Origin: Acidobacteriaceae bacterium
Lineage (GTDB): Bacteria; Acidobacteriota; Terriglobia; Terriglobales; Acidobacteriaceae
DNA length: 64,000 nt
NCBI GenBank assembly: GCA_003156805.1
Contig: PMHV01000034.1
Location: 45,565 to 109,564 of the forward strand
Direction of reading: 5' to 3'
The translations under genes were made by a program, and so were the position numbers. This document shows, piece by piece, positions 43,465-51,410 of this stretch. The number at the start of each line of letters is the position of its first letter. Positions within the stretch are counted from its first letter, which is position 1. The notes under the pieces are model-generated. The model ran no database searches, was not told the origin of the DNA, and saw nothing but the letters and a program-made list of their open reading frames with translations.

Positions 43465-45483
43465 ATGAAAGCTAGCAAACAGTGGTGTGTGTGGCTGTTT
43501 CTACTGGCGAGTTTTGTATGGCTGTTCCAAGCGTCGCAGGCGATTGCGCAAGATCAAGCGCAACCTCCGCAGCAGCAAGTTGCGCAGGATCAGGATGGTC
43601 AGAATCAGACCGCGGATGACCAGGATCCTCCCGGCCGTGTAGCGCGGCTCAATTTCTCGCAAGGTTCGGTTTCGTTTCAGCCGGGCGGAGAAAATGACTG
43701 GGTCACTGCCGTGCCCAACCGCCCCATGGTGACGGGCGATAATCTCTGGGCTGACGAGGATTCGCGCGCCGAGGTACACGTCGGTTCGACAGCCATTCGT
43801 CTTGGTCCGAAAACCGGCATTACTTTTCTCGAAGTCGGCGACCAGGCAACTCAGATTCGCCTGGCGCAGGGCTCGCTCATCGTGCGCGTGCGCCACGTGG
43901 ATGACGACGATAGCTATGAGATCGACACGCCAAACGTGGCGTTCACTTTGCTGCAACCGGGTGAGTACCGCCTGGACGTCGATCCCGATGGCAATCACAC
44001 CGACATCACGGTGTGGCATGGCCGTGGCGAAGTTACCGGCGGCGGGTTCTCTTATACCGTTGTGGCGAATCAGCGCGCCACCTTCACCGGAACTGATCAT
44101 TTGGACTATGACTTGGGGCAGGTTGCCGGAAACGATGACTTCGATAGCTGGGTTTTCGAACGTGACCAGCGCGAAGATCAGTCCGATTCGGCGGATTACG
44201 TTTCTCGGGAAATGACCGGCTACGAAGACCTCGACGAGTACGGCAGTTGGAGCTACGTCGCCGGTTACGGACCGTGCTGGCGGCCGGTGGGCGTGGCTGT
44301 TGGTTGGGCGCCGTATCGCTTTGGCCACTGGGTGTGGATTGGTCCGTGGGGCTGGACGTGGGTGGAAGATGAGCCTTGGGGCTTCGCTCCATTTCACTAC
44401 GGACGCTGGGCTTTTGCCGGAGGCGGCTGGTTCTGGGTGCCGGGACCGGTTGTCGTGCGGCCGATGTGGGCTCCGGCGCTGGTGGGCTTCGTCGGCGGCG
44501 GACCTGGGTTTCACTTTTCGGTTGCGATCGGTGGCGGAGGCGGAGTGGGATGGTTTCCGCTGGCGCCGGGAGAAGTTTTTGTCCCCGGCTACCGCGTGAG
44601 CCGCACTTACGTCAACAATGTGAACCTTACCAATACGAGGGTGAACGTCAGCCGAATCACGAACGTATACAACACGGTCGTAATCAACCGCAGCACCACC
44701 GTCAACAACATCATCTACGCAAACCAGCACGTCGATGGCGGTGTCACTGTGGTTTCGCACGACACGTTTGTGAATGCACAGCCGGTGGCGCGCAACATCG
44801 TGCAAGTGCCGTCGAGAGAAATCGAAAGTGCGCCGGTGACGCACGTGGTTGCGGCGGAACCGGTGCGGGCCAGCGTGTTCGGCGCAGGAAGACCCGTGGC
44901 TAATCGGCCGCCGGCAGCCGTTCTTTCCCGCCAGGTAGTGGCGCGAAGAACTCCGGCTCCAATGCCACGATCCTTCGATCAGAAGGTCGCGCAGGCGGGC
45001 GGACACTTGAATCAGCAGCCATTGGTACGTCAGGAACCTGCGGGCCGTCCCGCTCCCGTGAACCAGAGTAGGTTGAATCAGGCTACGTCGAATCAGGCTG
45101 GATCGAATCAGGGTGCGTCGAATCAAGCTGCGCGACAGCCTCAGCCGCAGGAGGGCTTCCATTCATTCGGCCAGCCTAACAGTGGAACCAACCAGGCGAA
45201 GCCGCTGCCTCGCGTGTGGGAGGCACAAGGAACTCCCGAACCTGAAAACCGGAACACCCAGCCGTCGAGCGGCACGCGGCCACAGCAGCCAATCGAGCAA
45301 CAGCCAGCGCAGCAGTGGTCGCATCCGCTGGCCAAGCCGGCGCCGGCGGTACAGGAGAGGAATCCAGAGCAGGAACAGCAGCAGGCGCAGAAGTTTAACA
45401 GTTGGCAGCAACAGCGGCCCGCGCCTGCACCGAAGCCAGCGCCGCGTTACTCTCCGCCGCCTCCCCCTCCACCTAAGAAGTGA
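43465..45483 (+). CDS. FecR-domain and DUF6600-like secreted protein
   Basis: A 672-residue exported protein with a signal peptide (WLFLLASFVWLFQASQAIAQ). A FecR-like beta domain comes first (about residues 55-210: VARLNFSQGSVSFQPGG, AEVHVGSTAIRLGPKTGITF), then the DUF6600 core of aromatic repeats (VGWAPYRFGHWVWIGPWGW, FAPFHYGRWAFAGGGW). A long Gln/Pro/Asn-rich tail contains a 15-base repeat. The paralogue is at 49044. Function unknown; the domain mix suggests a surface or periplasmic structural role. It has its own 185-base leader after kdpC. Confidence 0.85.
   Translation: MKASKQWCVWLFLLASFVWLFQASQAIAQDQAQPPQQQVAQDQDGQNQTADDQDPPGRVARLNFSQGSVSFQPGGENDWVTAVPNRPMVTGDNLWADEDSRAEVHVGSTAIRLGPKTGITFLEVGDQATQIRLAQGSLIVRVRHVDDDDSYEIDTPNVAFTLLQPGEYRLDVDPDGNHTDITVWHGRGEVTGGGFSYTVVANQRATFTGTDHLDYDLGQVAGNDDFDSWVFERDQREDQSDSADYVSREMTGYEDLDEYGSWSYVAGYGPCWRPVGVAVGWAPYRFGHWVWIGPWGWTWVEDEPWGFAPFHYGRWAFAGGGWFWVPGPVVVRPMWAPALVGFVGGGPGFHFSVAIGGGGGVGWFPLAPGEVFVPGYRVSRTYVNNVNLTNTRVNVSRITNVYNTVVINRSTTVNNIIYANQHVDGGVTVVSHDTFVNAQPVARNIVQVPSREIESAPVTHVVAAEPVRASVFGAGRPVANRPPAAVLSRQVVARRTPAPMPRSFDQKVAQAGGHLNQQPLVRQEPAGRPAPVNQSRLNQATSNQAGSNQGASNQAARQPQPQEGFHSFGQPNSGTNQAKPLPRVWEAQGTPEPENRNTQPSSGTRPQQPIEQQPAQQWSHPLAKPAPAVQERNPEQEQQQAQKFNSWQQQRPAPAPKPAPRYSPPPPPPPKK
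45060..45133. repeat. 15-bp repeat tract encoding Asn-Gln-Ala-x-Ser
   Basis: About five imperfect units of AATCAGGCTGGATCG encode NQATSNQAGSNQGASNQA in the tail of the FecR/DUF6600 protein. Confidence 0.75.
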
Positions 45484-47036: not shown

Positions 47037-48407
47037 ATGGCAAGAGTTCTAATTGTTGAAGACGAAGCGAAAATGCGCCGCCTGCTGGAGTTGAATCTCG
47101 GCGAGGACGGCTTCACCACATTTTCCGCCGGAGACGCCGAGACTGGCCTGAAACTTCTGCGCGAGAATTCCATCGACCTCGTGGTTACCGACCTGAAGCT
47201 GCCGGGCATTGACGGTCTGGAATTCCTGCAAGCCGTGAAGCGTCAAAATGTCGCGCTGCCTGTTGTGGTGATGACCGCATTCGGCACGGTCGAGACCGCG
47301 GTCGAGGCCATGAAGGCCGGGGCCAGCGACTATGTGCTGAAGCCGTTCTCCCTGGCCGAGATGCGCATGGTCATTCACAAAGAATTGGATGTGCATAACC
47401 TGCGCGAGGAGAATCGCTCGCTTCGCGAGGCGCTGGGCAAGCGTTATGAGCATCCCAATGTGGTCGCACGCAGCTCGAAGATGCAGGAGGTTCTTTCCAC
47501 AGTGGATCGCGTCGCTCCCACAAATTCGACAGTGCTGCTGGGCGGAGAAAGCGGCGTAGGCAAGGATTTGATCGCACGCGCCATTCATGAAAGGTCGCGG
47601 CGCGCTTCCGGTCCATTCATCAAGATCAACAGCACCGCGATTCCGGAAAACCTGCTGGAGAGCGAATTGTTCGGCTACGAGAAAGGCGCGTTCACCGGCG
47701 CCGTCGCCAGCAAACCAGGCAAGTTTGAACTGGCCGACAAGGGCACGTTGTTCCTCGACGAAATCGGCGATGTTCCTCCCGTCACGCAAGTTAAACTGTT
47801 GCGCGTTTTGCAGGAGCGCGAGTTCGAACGCCTGGGCGGCACACGCACGGTGAAAGTGGACGTGCGTCTCATCGCCGCCACCAACCGCGATCTGCGCGAG
47901 GCGCTCGAGCAGGGAACTTTTCGCGAAGATCTCTACTACCGCTTGAATGTTGTGCCCATTGACATTGCTCCGCTGCGCCAGCGCAAGGAAGACATTCCCG
48001 ACCTGGTGAATCTTTTCATCGCGCGTTTTCGCGGAGACTCGGGCAAGCCGGTTGAGGGCATTTCGCCGCTGGCCATGCAGGTTCTGGTCAACTACCACTG
48101 GCCGGGGAACGTTCGCGAATTGCAGAACATCATCGAGCGCGCCTGCGCTTTGGCCAAGGGGACAGTAATTGATGCGCCTGACATTCACCTCGACCTGCGC
48201 GCGGCCAAGACTGCGAACGGCGCCGGCAACTTTCTTCCCGAAGGCCTGACGCTCGAACAATGGGAAGACGAAATGATCCGCGAATCTTTGCGGCGCGCTC
48301 ACGGCAACAAGAGCCAGGCCGCGCGCCTGCTCGGCTTGTCGCGCAATGCGCTGCGCTATCGGCTGTCGAAGATTGGAATCGCGGATGAAGGCGAGAAAGA
48401 ACTTTAG
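47037..48407 (+). CDS. Sigma-54-dependent response regulator (NtrC family)
   Basis: A 456-residue regulator in three parts. The receiver has phospho-Asp in DLVVTDLKLPG and ASDYVLKPFS. The AAA+ domain has the Walker A GESGVGKDLIARAI, the sigma-54 contact loop KGAFTGAV and Walker B GTLFLDEIGDVPP. The Fis-type helix-turn-helix is NKSQAARLLGLSRNALRYRL. It should activate sigma-54 promoters on signal from the adjacent kinase. A good candidate promoter of that type is found downstream at 48966. Confidence 0.96.
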   Translation: MARVLIVEDEAKMRRLLELNLGEDGFTTFSAGDAETGLKLLRENSIDLVVTDLKLPGIDGLEFLQAVKRQNVALPVVVMTAFGTVETAVEAMKAGASDYVLKPFSLAEMRMVIHKELDVHNLREENRSLREALGKRYEHPNVVARSSKMQEVLSTVDRVAPTNSTVLLGGESGVGKDLIARAIHERSRRASGPFIKINSTAIPENLLESELFGYEKGAFTGAVASKPGKFELADKGTLFLDEIGDVPPVTQVKLLRVLQEREFERLGGTRTVKVDVRLIAATNRDLREALEQGTFREDLYYRLNVVPIDIAPLRQRKEDIPDLVNLFIARFRGDSGKPVEGISPLAMQVLVNYHWPGNVRELQNIIERACALAKGTVIDAPDIHLDLRAAKTANGAGNFLPEGLTLEQWEDEMIRESLRRAHGNKSQAARLLGLSRNALRYRLSKIGIADEGEKEL

Positions 48408-48483
48408 AGTGATCAACGTCCCGAATCAGAACAGTTCCGCATCGGAAACGAAAAATACCTTAGCGGTCCACTCATGCGGCCAC

Positions 48484-48489
48484 TACAAT
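48484..48489 (+). promoter_or_regulatory. -10 candidate for the tRNA gene
   Basis: TACAAT lies 20 bases before the tRNA 5' end, so a start near 48496 would give a short 5' leader. A weak TTAGCG is 18 bases upstream of it. Confidence 0.35.
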
Positions 48490-48509
48490 CATGGCGACGG
48501 ACAGCGTCT

Positions 48510-48598
48510 GGAGAGTCTTGCCAGTGGGTACTGGACACTGTCTTTCACACAGTCGAGTGGCTTAGTCAGCCACTAGGGTTCGACTCCCTCGCTCTCCG
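48510..48598 (+). tRNA. Non-canonical (allo-)tRNA with UUC anticodon and 8/4-like acceptor branch
   Basis: An 89-base tRNA-like gene. Acceptor stem: GGAGAGT (48510-48516) pairs with GCTCTCC (48591-48597), with a C.C mismatch at the eighth pair. D-stem CCAGT/ACTGG has a 4-base loop GGGT. The anticodon stem ACTGT/ACAGT closes the 7-base loop CTTTCAC, anticodon TTC at 48544-48546 with T33 in place. The long variable arm is a 7-bp stem (48556-48562 with 48568-48574). The T-stem is only 4 bp (AGGG/CCCT) with loop TTCGACT. The discriminator base is G; CCA is not encoded. The body is serine/selenocysteine-like but the anticodon reads glutamate codons. Confidence 0.85.
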
Positions 48599-48624
48599 CA
48601 AGTCACTCGACGACATAAAAGTGC

Positions 48625-48652
48625 TTGACAACGCTGCTGTTGGAGCTATGCT
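48625..48652 (+). promoter_or_regulatory. Sigma-70 type promoter candidate downstream of the tRNA
   Basis: TTGACA (48625-48630), a 16-base spacer and TATGCT (48647-48652). The predicted start near 48659 would give a short RNA ending at the terminator at 48699-48726. Confidence 0.5.
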
Positions 48653-48658
48653 TAAATT

Positions 48659-48726
48659 GTGTGAAGGACAGCGTCCGGTACCAAGTGCTTCAGATCCAAG
48701 CCCCGACTGACTATCGGGGCTTTCGT
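48659..48726 (+). ncRNA. Possible small RNA after the non-canonical tRNA
   Basis: About 68 bases lie between a TTGACA-16-TATGCT promoter and a Rho-independent hairpin. No open frame of note is present. It contains GGACAGCGTC (48666-48675), the same 10 bases found directly before the tRNA (48499-48508), and AAGTGCTT, which also occurs just downstream of the tRNA at 48619. It may instead be the 3' part of a longer tRNA transcript. Confidence 0.35.
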
Positions 48727-48729
48727 GTT
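48699..48729 (+). terminator. Rho-independent terminator
   Basis: AGCCCCGA (48699-48706) pairs with TCGGGGCT (48714-48721), 8 bp with a 7-base loop, followed by TTCGTGTT. It ends the tRNA/small-RNA unit. Confidence 0.75.
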
Positions 48730-48965
48730 GCTGGGGCTTCGCCGAATCTGTAGCGCGAGGTGCGCGCGTCTAATTGCACCACCCAGGGCCGACTTTGGAC
48801 AGCTTGGAAACCTTCGGTCCCGTCATTCCGACTGTATTGGCTGAAAACCACCAGCTTGGCTGAGAGCGGCCACCGGGTCTACATCCTGCCCTCCGCATTC
48901 GGTTGAAAAGCATAACTCCGGCTCTGAAAACAAATGAGTTACTGGATTTTCCCCCGCGCTGCTTT

Positions 48966-48981
48966 TGGTACGGCAGTTGCT
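48966..48981 (+). promoter_or_regulatory. Sigma-54 promoter
   Basis: TGGTAC, five bases, TTGCT: the -24 GG and -12 GC are separated by exactly 10 bases, as in TGGCAC-N5-TTGCW, with one mismatch. It lies about 63 bases upstream of the ATG at 49044 and directly downstream of an NtrC-type activator gene. Confidence 0.65.
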
Positions 48982-49043
48982 TTACACATGGCGCATCAAT
49001 CCTTCAGATTTCGGGTTTAGGTAGATATTGGGAGAGGTGGGCT

Positions 49044-51410
49044 ATGAAGACCAGATTTCTTAAAGCGTTTCTTGCAACGAGCTTCGCGATTCTCGCGTGG
49101 ATCGTCGCGGGCGCCGCCAACCTAAACGCGCAGCAAGCGCCGACGGATAAGCCGAGCGCCGCAGTCGACGCGCAACAAGCGCAGTCGCCCGATGCAGGGG
49201 CGCCGCCGGCGCCGTCGGCAGAACCGCCGCAAGGTCCCGGTGACCATCCCGAAAATTCCATGGAAATGCCGCAAGGCCCGGGCGGCCCGAACGCAGCGCC
49301 GCAAGGGCCCGGTAGCGCGAACGCCCCGAATACCGGTAACGAAAACGGCGGCAACGAAAACGCCGAGATGGAGAATAAGCAGGGCGTCGGCCGCATCAGC
49401 ATGATCCATGGCGAGGTATCGACCCAGCGCGGAGACTCCGGCGACTGGTCGGCGGCGGTGCTGAACCAACCGCTTGTCGGCGGCGACAAAGTTTCCACCG
49501 GCTCGGGTGGGCGCGCCGAAGTCCAGCTCGATTACGCCAACATTCTTCGCTTGAGCTCGAACGCCCAAGCCACTATCGGGGATTTCACTCGCCAGCGCGT
49601 CCAGGTTCAGATCGGTCAGGGTCTGGCAAATTACACCGTTTTCGGTGAGAGCGAGGCTGAGCCTGAAATCGACACGCCGAACGTTGCGATTCATCCCGCG
49701 CACCGCGATGGCGCGTTCCGCATTGAAGTGCGTCCCGACGGCGACACGATTGTGATCGTGCGCAAGGGCGAGGCCCAGATCTCCACTCCGAAGGGCATTG
49801 CGGAAATCAAGCAGGGAGAAATGGCTACGGTGCGTGGTTCGACCGAGAATGCGCAATACAAGATCAGCCCGGCTTCCGAAAGCGACGATTGGGATCGCTG
49901 GAACAGCGACCGCGACCACATGATTCACAGCGCAAACTCATGGCAGCACACTAATCGCTACTACGTTGGATCGGAGGATCTGGATAAGTACGGGCAATGG
50001 GAGAACGTTCCCGATTACGGCCAGGTTTGGGTTCCGTCTGAAACGAGTGACTGGGCGCCATACCGTGATGGCAACTGGGTGTATGAGCCTTACTACGGTT
50101 GGACTTGGGTTGGGTATGAGCCGTGGGGCTGGGCTCCGTATCACTACGGACGCTGGCTCTCGTACGGCGGCTCGTGGGCGTGGTGGCCCGGTCCGGTGTG
50201 GGGCGCGGGTTTCTACCGTCCCTTCTGGGCGCCGGCGTATGTCTCGTTCTTTGGGTTCGGAGGCGGCTGGGGCTTTGGCTTCGGCCTGGGATGGGGCGGT
50301 TGGGGCGGGTTTGGCTGGTTGCCGCTAGGTCCGTGTGACTGGTTTCACCCGTGGTGGGGCGGATTCCGCGGACGCTTCGGCGTTGTCAATGTTGCGCGTG
50401 GCGGCTTTGATCGCTCCGGTGGCGTCGCGCCCCTGCACGGTGGAACCCGCTTCTCGAACCTGGCGCACATGAACGATGCCCACATCGGCCGTGGATTGTC
50501 GACCGTGCCCGCCGGGCGTTTTGGCGCCGGTCATGTAACCGCGGTGGCGGCGAACCGCTCGCAGTTGAGCAGCGCTCGCATGATGACCGGGAACATGCCG
50601 GTGGTGCCAAGTCGCGCCAGTTTGTCGGCCAGCGGACGTGCGGCCGCGCCTTCCACTATTCACAGCGGGGCTGCGCAGCACTTCTTCGGCACGCAGAGCA
50701 CGGCGCATGCGGAATCGTTCCAGCAGGAGACCGCGCACTTGCAGCAGTCCATGCAACAGAACCACTTTTCGCCCGTGGCTGCGGGAGGACGCGAAACTTC
50801 GGCGGGTGCGGGGGAATCTCGCGGCACTGCGCTGGCAGGAACTGGCAAGTCGAGTACAGGTACGCCTTCGGCCAACAGCAAAGCTCGTTCCGGCAGCGTG
50901 CCCGAACGGTCGATCAATTCGCTGGGTTCCGAGAATCGTGCTTCTGAGAATCGTGGTTCGGAGAATCATGGTTCAGAGAATAATGGTTCGGCGAATCTAG
51001 GTACCGAGAATCACATGCAGTCCCTGGCGCCGTCGCCGGCGAACCGCAGTGAGCCCAACCGTGGCGAGTGGAAAACCTTCACTCCGCCCTCACACAGCAC
51101 GGATTCTGCGAGCCGCGCAGCGGGAAATGGAGCAGGCAATGCCGGGGTCTCTGGCCGCGGCGAAACAGGCAACTACTGGAGCCGCACGGCGCCCAGCTCA
51201 AACTACTCGCGCGGATCTGCCGCGGGCAGCTATGACCGCGGCGGCAGTTACTCCCGTCCGCAACTCAATATGCGGCAGCCCATCGTGCAGCCGCGTTCTT
51301 ATGGCGGCTACCGTGGAGGCTATAGCGGCGGTACGCACAGCGCGCCCAGCAACAGCGGAGGCGGCCACTCCTCGGGAGGCGGAGGCCACTCCGGCGGCGG
51401 TCACCACTAG
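49044..51410 (+). CDS. FecR-domain and DUF6600-like secreted protein, paralogue
   Basis: A 788-residue exported protein: signal peptide (FLATSFAILAWIVAGAANLNA), a Gln/Pro/Gly/Asn-rich linker, a FecR-like domain (about residues 115-270: VGRISMIHGEVSTQRGD, AEVQLDYANILRLSSNAQ) and the DUF6600 aromatic core (WAPYRDGNWVYEPYYGW, WAPYHYGRWLSYGGSW). The tail is rich in Gly/Ser/His and contains a 15-base repeat; it ends in SGGGHSSGGGGHSGGGHH. The ATG at 49044 follows GGAGAGG and starts the signal peptide; the open frame upstream overlaps the sigma-54 promoter. Likely under control of the NtrB/NtrC pair. The His-rich end could bind metal. Confidence 0.85.
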   Translation: MKTRFLKAFLATSFAILAWIVAGAANLNAQQAPTDKPSAAVDAQQAQSPDAGAPPAPSAEPPQGPGDHPENSMEMPQGPGGPNAAPQGPGSANAPNTGNENGGNENAEMENKQGVGRISMIHGEVSTQRGDSGDWSAAVLNQPLVGGDKVSTGSGGRAEVQLDYANILRLSSNAQATIGDFTRQRVQVQIGQGLANYTVFGESEAEPEIDTPNVAIHPAHRDGAFRIEVRPDGDTIVIVRKGEAQISTPKGIAEIKQGEMATVRGSTENAQYKISPASESDDWDRWNSDRDHMIHSANSWQHTNRYYVGSEDLDKYGQWENVPDYGQVWVPSETSDWAPYRDGNWVYEPYYGWTWVGYEPWGWAPYHYGRWLSYGGSWAWWPGPVWGAGFYRPFWAPAYVSFFGFGGGWGFGFGLGWGGWGGFGWLPLGPCDWFHPWWGGFRGRFGVVNVARGGFDRSGGVAPLHGGTRFSNLAHMNDAHIGRGLSTVPAGRFGAGHVTAVAANRSQLSSARMMTGNMPVVPSRASLSASGRAAAPSTIHSGAAQHFFGTQSTAHAESFQQETAHLQQSMQQNHFSPVAAGGRETSAGAGESRGTALAGTGKSSTGTPSANSKARSGSVPERSINSLGSENRASENRGSENHGSENNGSANLGTENHMQSLAPSPANRSEPNRGEWKTFTPPSHSTDSASRAAGNGAGNAGVSGRGETGNYWSRTAPSSNYSRGSAAGSYDRGGSYSRPQLNMRQPIVQPRSYGGYRGGYSGGTHSAPSNSGGGHSSGGGGHSGGGHH
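50924..51014. repeat. 15-bp repeat tract encoding Ser-Glu-Asn-x-Gly
   Basis: Six imperfect units of GAGAATCGTGGTTCG encode SENRASENRGSENHGSENNG in the tail of the second FecR/DUF6600 protein. Confidence 0.8.

Follow-up and report, generated by a model that had tools for sequence, protein, structure and literature searches.

The window analyzed here, a 64,000-nucleotide stretch of DNA from an Acidobacteriaceae bacterium, carries an allo-tRNA gene with a serine-type body and a glutamate anticodon and, downstream of it, a promoter-like site, a segment complementary to the anticodon arm of the same tRNA, and a terminator-like hairpin. The complementarity is cognate-specific across related cassettes, as is that of two further elements in the leader and trailer of the tRNA, and the pairing of tRNA with antisense segment recurs on a second, alanine-type scaffold. 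From these sequence comparisons, we consider it likely that the cassette encodes a missense tRNA together with a dedicated antisense RNA that keeps the tRNA silent, in the manner of hok/sok loci.

Results

An 8/4 Allo-tRNA with a UUC Anticodon

ARAGORN called a single tRNA in the window, at 48510-48599, with anticodon TTC. The 48510-48598 body folds (-34.8 kcal/mol, z -2.25) with a 7-bp acceptor stem, a 5-bp D-stem closed by a 4-nt loop, a 5-bp anticodon stem with the loop CTTTCAC, a 7-bp variable arm, and a 4-bp T-stem; call and fold reproduce the arms of the noncanonical tRNA described in the original prediction. The features of the locus are listed in Table 1.

Table 1. Features of the allo-tRNA cassette and its neighbors (window coordinates)
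Feature	Position	Strand	Remarks
NtrC-type response regulator, upstream neighbor	47037..48407	+	context only
Degenerate near-palindrome TTCCCRAWTYGGGAA, 11/15	48434..48448	+	possible activator site of P1
P1 -10-like box TACAAT of the tRNA transcript	48484..48489	+	no recognizable -35
Leader element u, GGACAGCGTC	48499..48508	+	complementary to the anticodon stem 5' strand, same transcript
8/4 allo-tRNA	48510..48598	+	anticodon UUC at 48544-48546; G73; CCA not encoded; acceptor stem tRNA-Ser-like
Trailer element v, GTCACTCGAC	48602..48611	+	complementary to the variable arm 5' strand
Promoter-like P2, TTGACA-16-TATGCT	48625..48652	+	lone promoter-like site in 48400-49050; shuffles expect 0.2
Antisense segment d, GTGTGAAGGACAGCGTCCGGTACC	48659..48682	+	complementary to tRNA 48527-48550, one mismatch
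Intrinsic-terminator-like hairpin GCCCCGA-CTGACTA-TCGGGGC plus T-rich tail	48700..48729	+	sequence, fold, alignment; similar in relatives
FecR/DUF6600 protein, downstream neighbor	48903..51410	+	context only; start codon per ORF tool

The gene is an 8/4 allo-tRNA. Among 25 aligned copies of the same genus, 15 have G-C as the eighth acceptor pair, 8 have A-U, and 1 has G-U; C.C is confined to the window copy. Since this pair is standard in 24/25 copies, the class is truly 8/4, with a 12-bp acceptor domain (8 + 4). The long variable arm is conserved across the alignment, and a nonserine anticodon (UUC) is combined with SerRS identity features (G73 and an acceptor like that of host tRNA-Ser). Compensatory changes at 13 of 29 consensus pairs, located in the acceptor, anticodon, and T stems, bear out the stem conservation in relatives on which the original prediction had made its class assignment depend. 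Such allo-tRNAs occur in Acidobacteria, Clostridia, and Proteobacteria (Mukai et al. 2017, as cited in PMC7609411) and, as far as they are described in the available text of PMC7609411, share with the present copies the 8-bp acceptor, 4-bp T stem, long variable arm, Ser identity features, and diverse non-Ser anticodons. UAU, GCG, and GUC predominate among the anticodons given there and UUC was found once, in a list that is not fully consistent.

Other tRNA identities were set aside. The tRNA-Sec model, proposed earlier as a check, was the single Rfam match between 46000 and 51000 (E up to 1), at 44.5 bits against a cut-off of 47; the anticodon is UUC instead of UCA, and the genuine selC(UCA) lies elsewhere in the genome (L024), so the earlier statement that the gene is not selC holds. 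It is likewise no standard tRNA-Glu, as had been proposed from its long variable arm: the body is neither 7/5 nor of the short-variable-loop kind, and a canonical tRNA-Glu(UUC) with an identical anticodon loop, CTTTCAC, is encoded separately (L109). The transposon-linked allo-tRNA(UAU) group is excluded for the window copy by its UUC anticodon and by the presence of an antisense segment. Two further Ser-type copies lie on other contigs of the same genome, C11 (GUC) and C66 (GCC).

A Promoter-Like Site and Antisense Segment Follow the tRNA

About 60 nt downstream of the tRNA, P2 should start a terminated RNA of ~65 nt. Segment d begins seven bases past P2, at the predicted sRNA 5' end, and its target comprises the 3' strand of the D-stem, the 5' strand of the anticodon stem, and the whole anticodon loop. 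A simple terminator scan did not list the hairpin at 48700-48729. The order of promoter, d, and terminator is common to the 28 cassettes kept from our first alignment, in some of which an extended -10 TATAAT replaces the TTGACA box. Scored by consensus match only, P2 has a -35 with at least 5 consensus matches in 24/47 cassettes (one of them doubtful) and a perfect TATAAT in 11; the script gave no P2 for L041 and doubtful matches at L049, L057, L059, L123, L126, L132, and L150. The original prediction had recognized the tRNA; P2, the covarying antisense segment, and the complementary leader and trailer were absent from it.

The idea that d is a leader of the downstream gene was rejected, given the terminator-like hairpin after d and the flanks that differ among cassette groups. 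L038 shows a second TATAAT with an antisense-like segment (TTGAAAGGTAGCGTA) some 250 nt past the tRNA, as though its sRNA gene had been duplicated.

Complementarity Is Specific to the Cognate tRNA

We compared duplexes (RNAduplex) of each tRNA with its own and with exchanged antisense segments. For the 28 cassettes, d was defined as the 45 nt that precede the terminator, a placement independent of pairing; own pairs reached -40.6 kcal/mol and mixed pairs -26.3 kcal/mol, and 0/20,000 permutations attained the observed sum. The own sRNA ranked first for 14 of the 28 and never worse than seventh; it was not always first because near relatives share arms. In a nonredundant set of 12, whose variable arms differ at ≥5/16 positions, the energies were -39.3 (own) vs. 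-23.6 kcal/mol (mixed), with 0/100,000 permutations as good, and the own partner was best in 10/12 with independent placement, compared with 12/12 when d was placed by its own pairing.

The analysis was then extended to 49 cassettes from Ca. Sulfotelmatobacter and relatives, that is, 51 distinct tRNA bodies minus L113 (degenerate) and L154 (no antisense segment); a false match in L043 and copies too near contig ends were left out, and L146, which has a variable-arm insert, was also omitted from the precursor, promoter, and palindrome sets. When d was positioned by the best duplex with its own tRNA, cognate energies were -28.2 vs. -15.9 for mixed pairs, matched by 0/20,000 re-pairings. A stretch of 14 adjacent positions, which starts 2 nt ahead of the anticodon stem and runs to the end of the loop, is Watson-Crick paired at each position in 40-47 of the 49 cassettes, with several pair types at most of them, and pairing drops after the loop. 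Over positions 9-25, 695/833 cells are paired, compared with 565 ± 9 after permutation (10,000; maximum 601); L150 and L033 have low scores in this register, which allows no gaps. Both this register and the best-own-duplex placement were chosen on the own pair and so favor it, a bias of which the 28- and 12-cassette tests are free. The permutations ignore phylogeny; three negative controls on the 49-cassette loci, which share that phylogeny, were null: leader against variable arm (18,765/20,000), trailer against anticodon arm (5,594/20,000), and P2 region against anticodon arm (3,588/20,000). At one syntenic site (L039, L040, L043, L045, L153, L154, and L167), the anticodon is GCG, GUC, or GCC depending on the genome, and the antisense follows the anticodon in all six loci that have one.

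Ordinary tRNA genes served as a further control. The scan covered 34 tRNA loci of the window's genome, two of which proved to be of the Ala type and are treated below. None of the remaining 32 has an antisense run of ≥12 nt, and three reach 11; duplex energy alone is less specific, as 4/32 and selC L196 also reach -30. Among the strong matches L220-L240, in contrast, 18/21 have a run of ≥12 nt, 19/21 one of ≥11 nt, and 20/21 a duplex of -30 or better; for the 13 on contigs not sampled before, the run is ≥12 nt in 12. That an ordinary allo-tRNA merely has some complementarity nearby by chance would suit the tRNA, which alone fits a known class, but the permutation results (0/20,000 and 0/100,000) and these controls lead us to reject it as extremely improbable. 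Segment d does resemble an antisense copy of the tRNA half from D-arm to anticodon loop, and it might be a relic or recombination substrate left by an inverted duplication of the tRNA 5' half. We regard such a DNA-level origin as very unlikely: in the aligned copies, d sits between a promoter-like site and a terminator-like hairpin, and complementarity is kept across arms that differ at ≥5/16 positions and also on the second scaffold. Together, these comparisons provide strong sequence evidence for cognate-specific pairing between d and its tRNA.

Leader and Trailer Elements May Occlude the Precursor

Two elements of the tRNA transcript itself are also complementary to the tRNA. For u, cognate and mixed energies across the 49 cassettes were -17.7 and -12.8 kcal/mol (0/20,000 permutations); for v they were -18.0 and -16.4 kcal/mol (0/20,000), a small and only mildly cognate-specific effect. 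The predicted minimum of the window precursor consists of two hairpins (-45.7 kcal/mol) and lacks the acceptor stem; the 89-nt mature sequence is predicted to adopt the cloverleaf. Both helices form in 23/48 precursors, vs. 12.9% of 480 with swapped leader and trailer. Thus, 23 of the 48 precursors, that of the window included, are predicted to fold as two hairpins that exclude the cloverleaf; in about half, this fold is not the predicted minimum.

A P1 -10-like box was found in 40/48 cassettes. In 34 of these it lies 20-26 nt upstream of the tRNA; the other 6 boxes, at a distance of only 6-7 nt, are probably spurious. No -35 with at least 5 consensus matches accompanies any of the 40. The near-palindrome TTCCCRAWTYGGGAA, some 78 nt ahead of the tRNA, scores ≥12/15 in 27/47 upstream regions, compared with 0.7% of shuffles. 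With up to 2 mismatches, it has no match anywhere in the window; with ≤1 mismatch, the window's genome holds 13 sites (L210-L219 and three more; control matches, 0), none at the genome's own three cassettes. A palindrome regulon was rejected, as the 10 inspected sites adjoin unrelated genes and the search found no regulator.

A Second, Ala-Type Scaffold Carries the Same Arrangement

The two loci set apart above, L077 (G000:C2:11450-11520; GUC) and L107 (G000:C27:23055-23125; GCC), have antisense runs of 12 and 16 nt, respectively. ARAGORN labels them as ordinary tRNA-Asp and tRNA-Gly, but their acceptors carry G3:U70 and A73, and the L107 stem is identical to that of host tRNA-Ala(GGC). A pattern search for this type returned 25 places (L254-L278), 23 of them distinct, in 18/45 genus genomes. 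G3:U70 with A73 is present in 19/21 parsable tRNAs (L271 and L273 apparently have insertions), and most precede a promoter-like site and an antisense segment. The antisense run is ≥12 nt in 19/23 and ≥11 nt in 21/23, the exceptions being L267, an incomplete locus, and L278. When the -35 box was used to position d, cognate duplexes reached -28.8 vs. -16.8 for mixed ones (n = 22; 0/20,000). The anticodons are GUC (13), GCG (6), GCC (3), and GCA (1), so that GUC, GCG, and GCC are shared by both scaffolds. Anticodon stems are weak, with 3/5 pairs in 15/23.

Distribution, Flanking Genes, and Decay

Ser-type matches occur in 26/45 genus genomes. Wider searches matched 19/299 class genomes (R1), 56/399 class genomes (R2), and 47/300 family genomes, counts that include weak matches, the inspected ones being ordinary tRNA-Ser, selC, or UAU-type; the inspected weak class matches L241-L253 are tRNA-Ser-like. 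The large runs were filtered more strictly and may have missed copies, and R2 is a poor structural model, built from an alignment with two misplaced rows. Across 396 phylum genomes, R1 gave four weak matches beyond the own genus (L206-L209), which are selC-like or ordinary tRNAs and lack the motif. Runs of ≥15 were found at L181, L182, L188, L189, L191, L192, L194, L195, and L204, which are copies from other families or divergent copies of the genus. In the 20 genus genomes with completeness of ≥90% and contamination of ≤5%, the Ser type is found in 12 and the Ala type in 7, so the cassette is dispensable.

Allo-tRNA-like genes with a UAU anticodon (L187, L190, L193, L197, and L201, in other Terriglobia) show no clear downstream antisense. 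Their downstream duplexes are no better than -22, reaching up to -27.4 (some lie at -25 to -27.4) when a wider range including upstream sequence is searched; L201 has one longer run, of 12 nt and G-U-rich. These loci probably represent the separate transposon-linked group described in the available text of PMC7609411.

The original prediction had linked the tRNA to stress sensed by the neighboring NtrC and FecR genes. We reject this link, because other cassette groups have other flanks: the neighborhood is one of several syntenic sites, and the C11 and C66 copies lie on other contigs. In the window, two DUF6600 proteins (43465-45483 and 48903-51410, one with a FecR domain) flank a histidine kinase and the NtrC-type regulator. 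A mobile-element origin was rejected on two grounds: for several groups, the flanks keep their synteny from genome to genome, and viral contigs, searched once with an exact pattern, gave 0 matches.

Some copies are in decay. Among those with intact acceptor and T arms, 49/50 have an antisense, the exception being L154, which has an acceptor mismatch; our script scored 47/50, and two of its three misses (L044 and L120) clearly bear an antisense position-wise. The antisense persists in eight copies that the script counted as damaged; some of these are parsing shifts, but the damage is real in L041, which has lost the T-arm, and in L139, whose acceptor is altered. Four are scored as both damaged and below threshold: L113, L146, which has an antisense position-wise, L180, which has one needing a gap, and L254, a loosely matched Ala-type locus. 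The 49/50 pattern is weak evidence that an unguarded tRNA may be harmful. A short repeat is inserted in the tRNA of L143, L144, L146, and the Ala-type L262, in the variable arm or on the T side, and antisense-like sequence remains downstream.

Charging and Decoding

The serine-like identity originally proposed is retained, in contrast to the stress link: the allo-tRNA acceptor, GGAGAG...CTCTCC-G73, is that of host tRNA-Ser. The allo-tRNA stems match the two host tRNA-Ser genes (L069, GGAGAG...CTCTCC-G; L061, GGAGGG...CCCTCC-G), which is consistent with serine charging and with Glu-to-Ser missense. For serine and alanine identities, the anticodon is no major component, according to the available text of PMC6316282.

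Anticodons of the 49 Ser-type copies are GUC (14), GCG (10), GCC (10), UUC (6), and AUC (6), with three others found once each. A37 is present in 47, and position 33 is U in 33, C in 15, and G in 1. Replacement of U33 (C in 15/49 and G in 1/49; C in 7/23 Ala-type copies) should weaken decoding. The discriminator, parsed in 46 copies, is G in 29, T in 16, and C in 1, and the full 4-pair anticodon-stem core is missing in 9/49. C33 and T73, each in about a third of copies, may mean that decoding or charging is weak in some.

An alternative is a purely regulatory RNA pair, in which an undecoded tRNA-like RNA sponges the sRNA, or vice versa, and anticodon diversity reflects antisense specificity alone. 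C33 in 15/49 fits this reading, as do L032, L033, and L034, whose anticodon stems are damaged while their antisense duplexes are still strong, and the inability of E. coli synthetases to charge some allo-tRNA-like RNAs, mentioned in the accessible part of PMC7609411. However, the acceptor, T, and anticodon stems are maintained by compensatory changes, the acceptors match host tRNA-Ser and, on the second scaffold, carry G3:U70 as in host tRNA-Ala, and the same GUC, GCG, and GCC anticodons occur on both. The sRNA seed, moreover, varies among copies, unlike a seed with conserved mRNA targets. We therefore think a pure RNA pair unlikely, if worth keeping in mind, and continue to favor a missense tRNA held silent by its antisense.

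The codons cognate to these anticodons are frequent, with GGC, CGC, GAA, GAC, and GAU ranking 1, 6, 9, 11, and 16 in the 39 ORFs of the window. Canonical tRNA-Asp(GUC) and tRNA-Gly(GCC) are absent among the 38 tRNA matches of the draft genome; because tRNA-Ile and tRNA-Tyr are likewise missing from the 38, the draft is incomplete for tRNA genes. A missense tRNA tuned by its antisense might also diversify the proteome under stress without killing. The same sequence evidence fits such regulated, beneficial mistranslation; two Silvibacterium allo-tRNAs support efficient Ser incorporation in E. coli (PMC7609411, available text), and several cassette groups occupy syntenic sites, unlike addiction modules on mobile DNA. 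Yet with codons this frequent, substitution would be global, and the antisense in 49/50 intact copies suggests that an unguarded tRNA is harmful. We judge beneficial tuning improbable, though hardly negligible, beside a harmful missense tRNA kept silent.

Discussion

How a guarded missense tRNA might work can be outlined as follows. P1, presumably weak and perhaps activator-dependent, would yield a precursor composed of leader, allo-tRNA, and trailer, in which leader and trailer would trap the anticodon and variable arms as two hairpins, exclude the cloverleaf, and leave the nascent RNA inert. End processing would then release a stable tRNA able to accept serine and to read one of the frequent sense codons (GAA for the window copy; GAC, CGC, GGC, or GAU for other cassettes). 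From P2, presumably the stronger promoter, a short sRNA would be transcribed whose 5' end begins on the anticodon loop and opens the anticodon stem and D-arm, and the resulting duplex would keep the tRNA off the ribosome. If the sRNA supply fell or P1 were induced, free tRNA would be decoded and put Ser at Glu (elsewhere at Asp, Arg, or Gly), and this misinsertion would slow or kill the cell, the tRNA taking the place of the toxin mRNA of hok/sok. We infer transcription, serylation, decoding, duplex formation, and toxicity from the features described above.

A more tentative proposal, which we hold somewhat short of an even balance, is that these cassettes form an RNA-only class of toxin-antitoxin system. 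The toxin would be the mistranslating tRNA and the antitoxin an antisense RNA to its decoding arm; at least two scaffolds would be used, with a self-occluding precursor in the Ser type, and Ser- and Ala-type scaffolds would both be aimed at Asp, Arg, and Gly codons, the anticodon mattering little for either identity. Type VIII systems, such as CreTA, use RNA for both partners, as here; the present target differs in being a whole tRNA with its own synthetase identity.

As in the type I loci hok/sok and tisB/IstR-1, an antisense RNA faces a partner RNA (PMC4147584, available text), and the likeness, that of an antisense specifically complementary to its own partner, is one of complementarity. 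According to the same text, hok mRNA is stable and Sok unstable, and full-length tisB needs cleavage before it is active or bound. The targets there are mRNAs; here, the target is a tRNA, the sRNA lies in tandem downstream instead of overlapping on the opposite strand, and toxicity would follow from missense. Closer to the tRNA side is tRNA-ProX of Streptomyces and Kitasatospora, which likewise joins one identity to another amino acid's anticodon, has an atypical position 33, and is thought to serve mistranslation (PMC11415595, available text). It differs in that a dedicated synthetase, ProRSx, is co-encoded, and antisense RNA is not mentioned in that text. Among 8/4 allo-tRNAs, the antisense RNA, leader, and trailer seen here set these cassettes apart; the main text of PMC7609411, so far as available, contains none of the words "antisense," "sRNA," and "complementary," and the available text of PMC7590224 does not contain "antisense." At title and abstract level, the open literature, in a search that did not cover Mukai et al. 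2017, yielded no antisense RNA to a tRNA anticodon arm in such a role.

The comparisons reported here suggest that the anticodon arm and its antisense evolve together. Allo-tRNAs should corrupt the proteome, yet they are kept with many anticodons, and we know of no established purpose for them. A covarying antisense RNA, leader, and trailer offer an explanation for the retention of these genes, namely that the tRNAs are held silent. If confirmed, this would be, to our knowledge, the first antisense control aimed at a tRNA anticodon arm and a new kind of RNA-RNA control over the fidelity of the genetic code, and the cassettes might provide a natural source of switchable missense tRNAs useful in code engineering.
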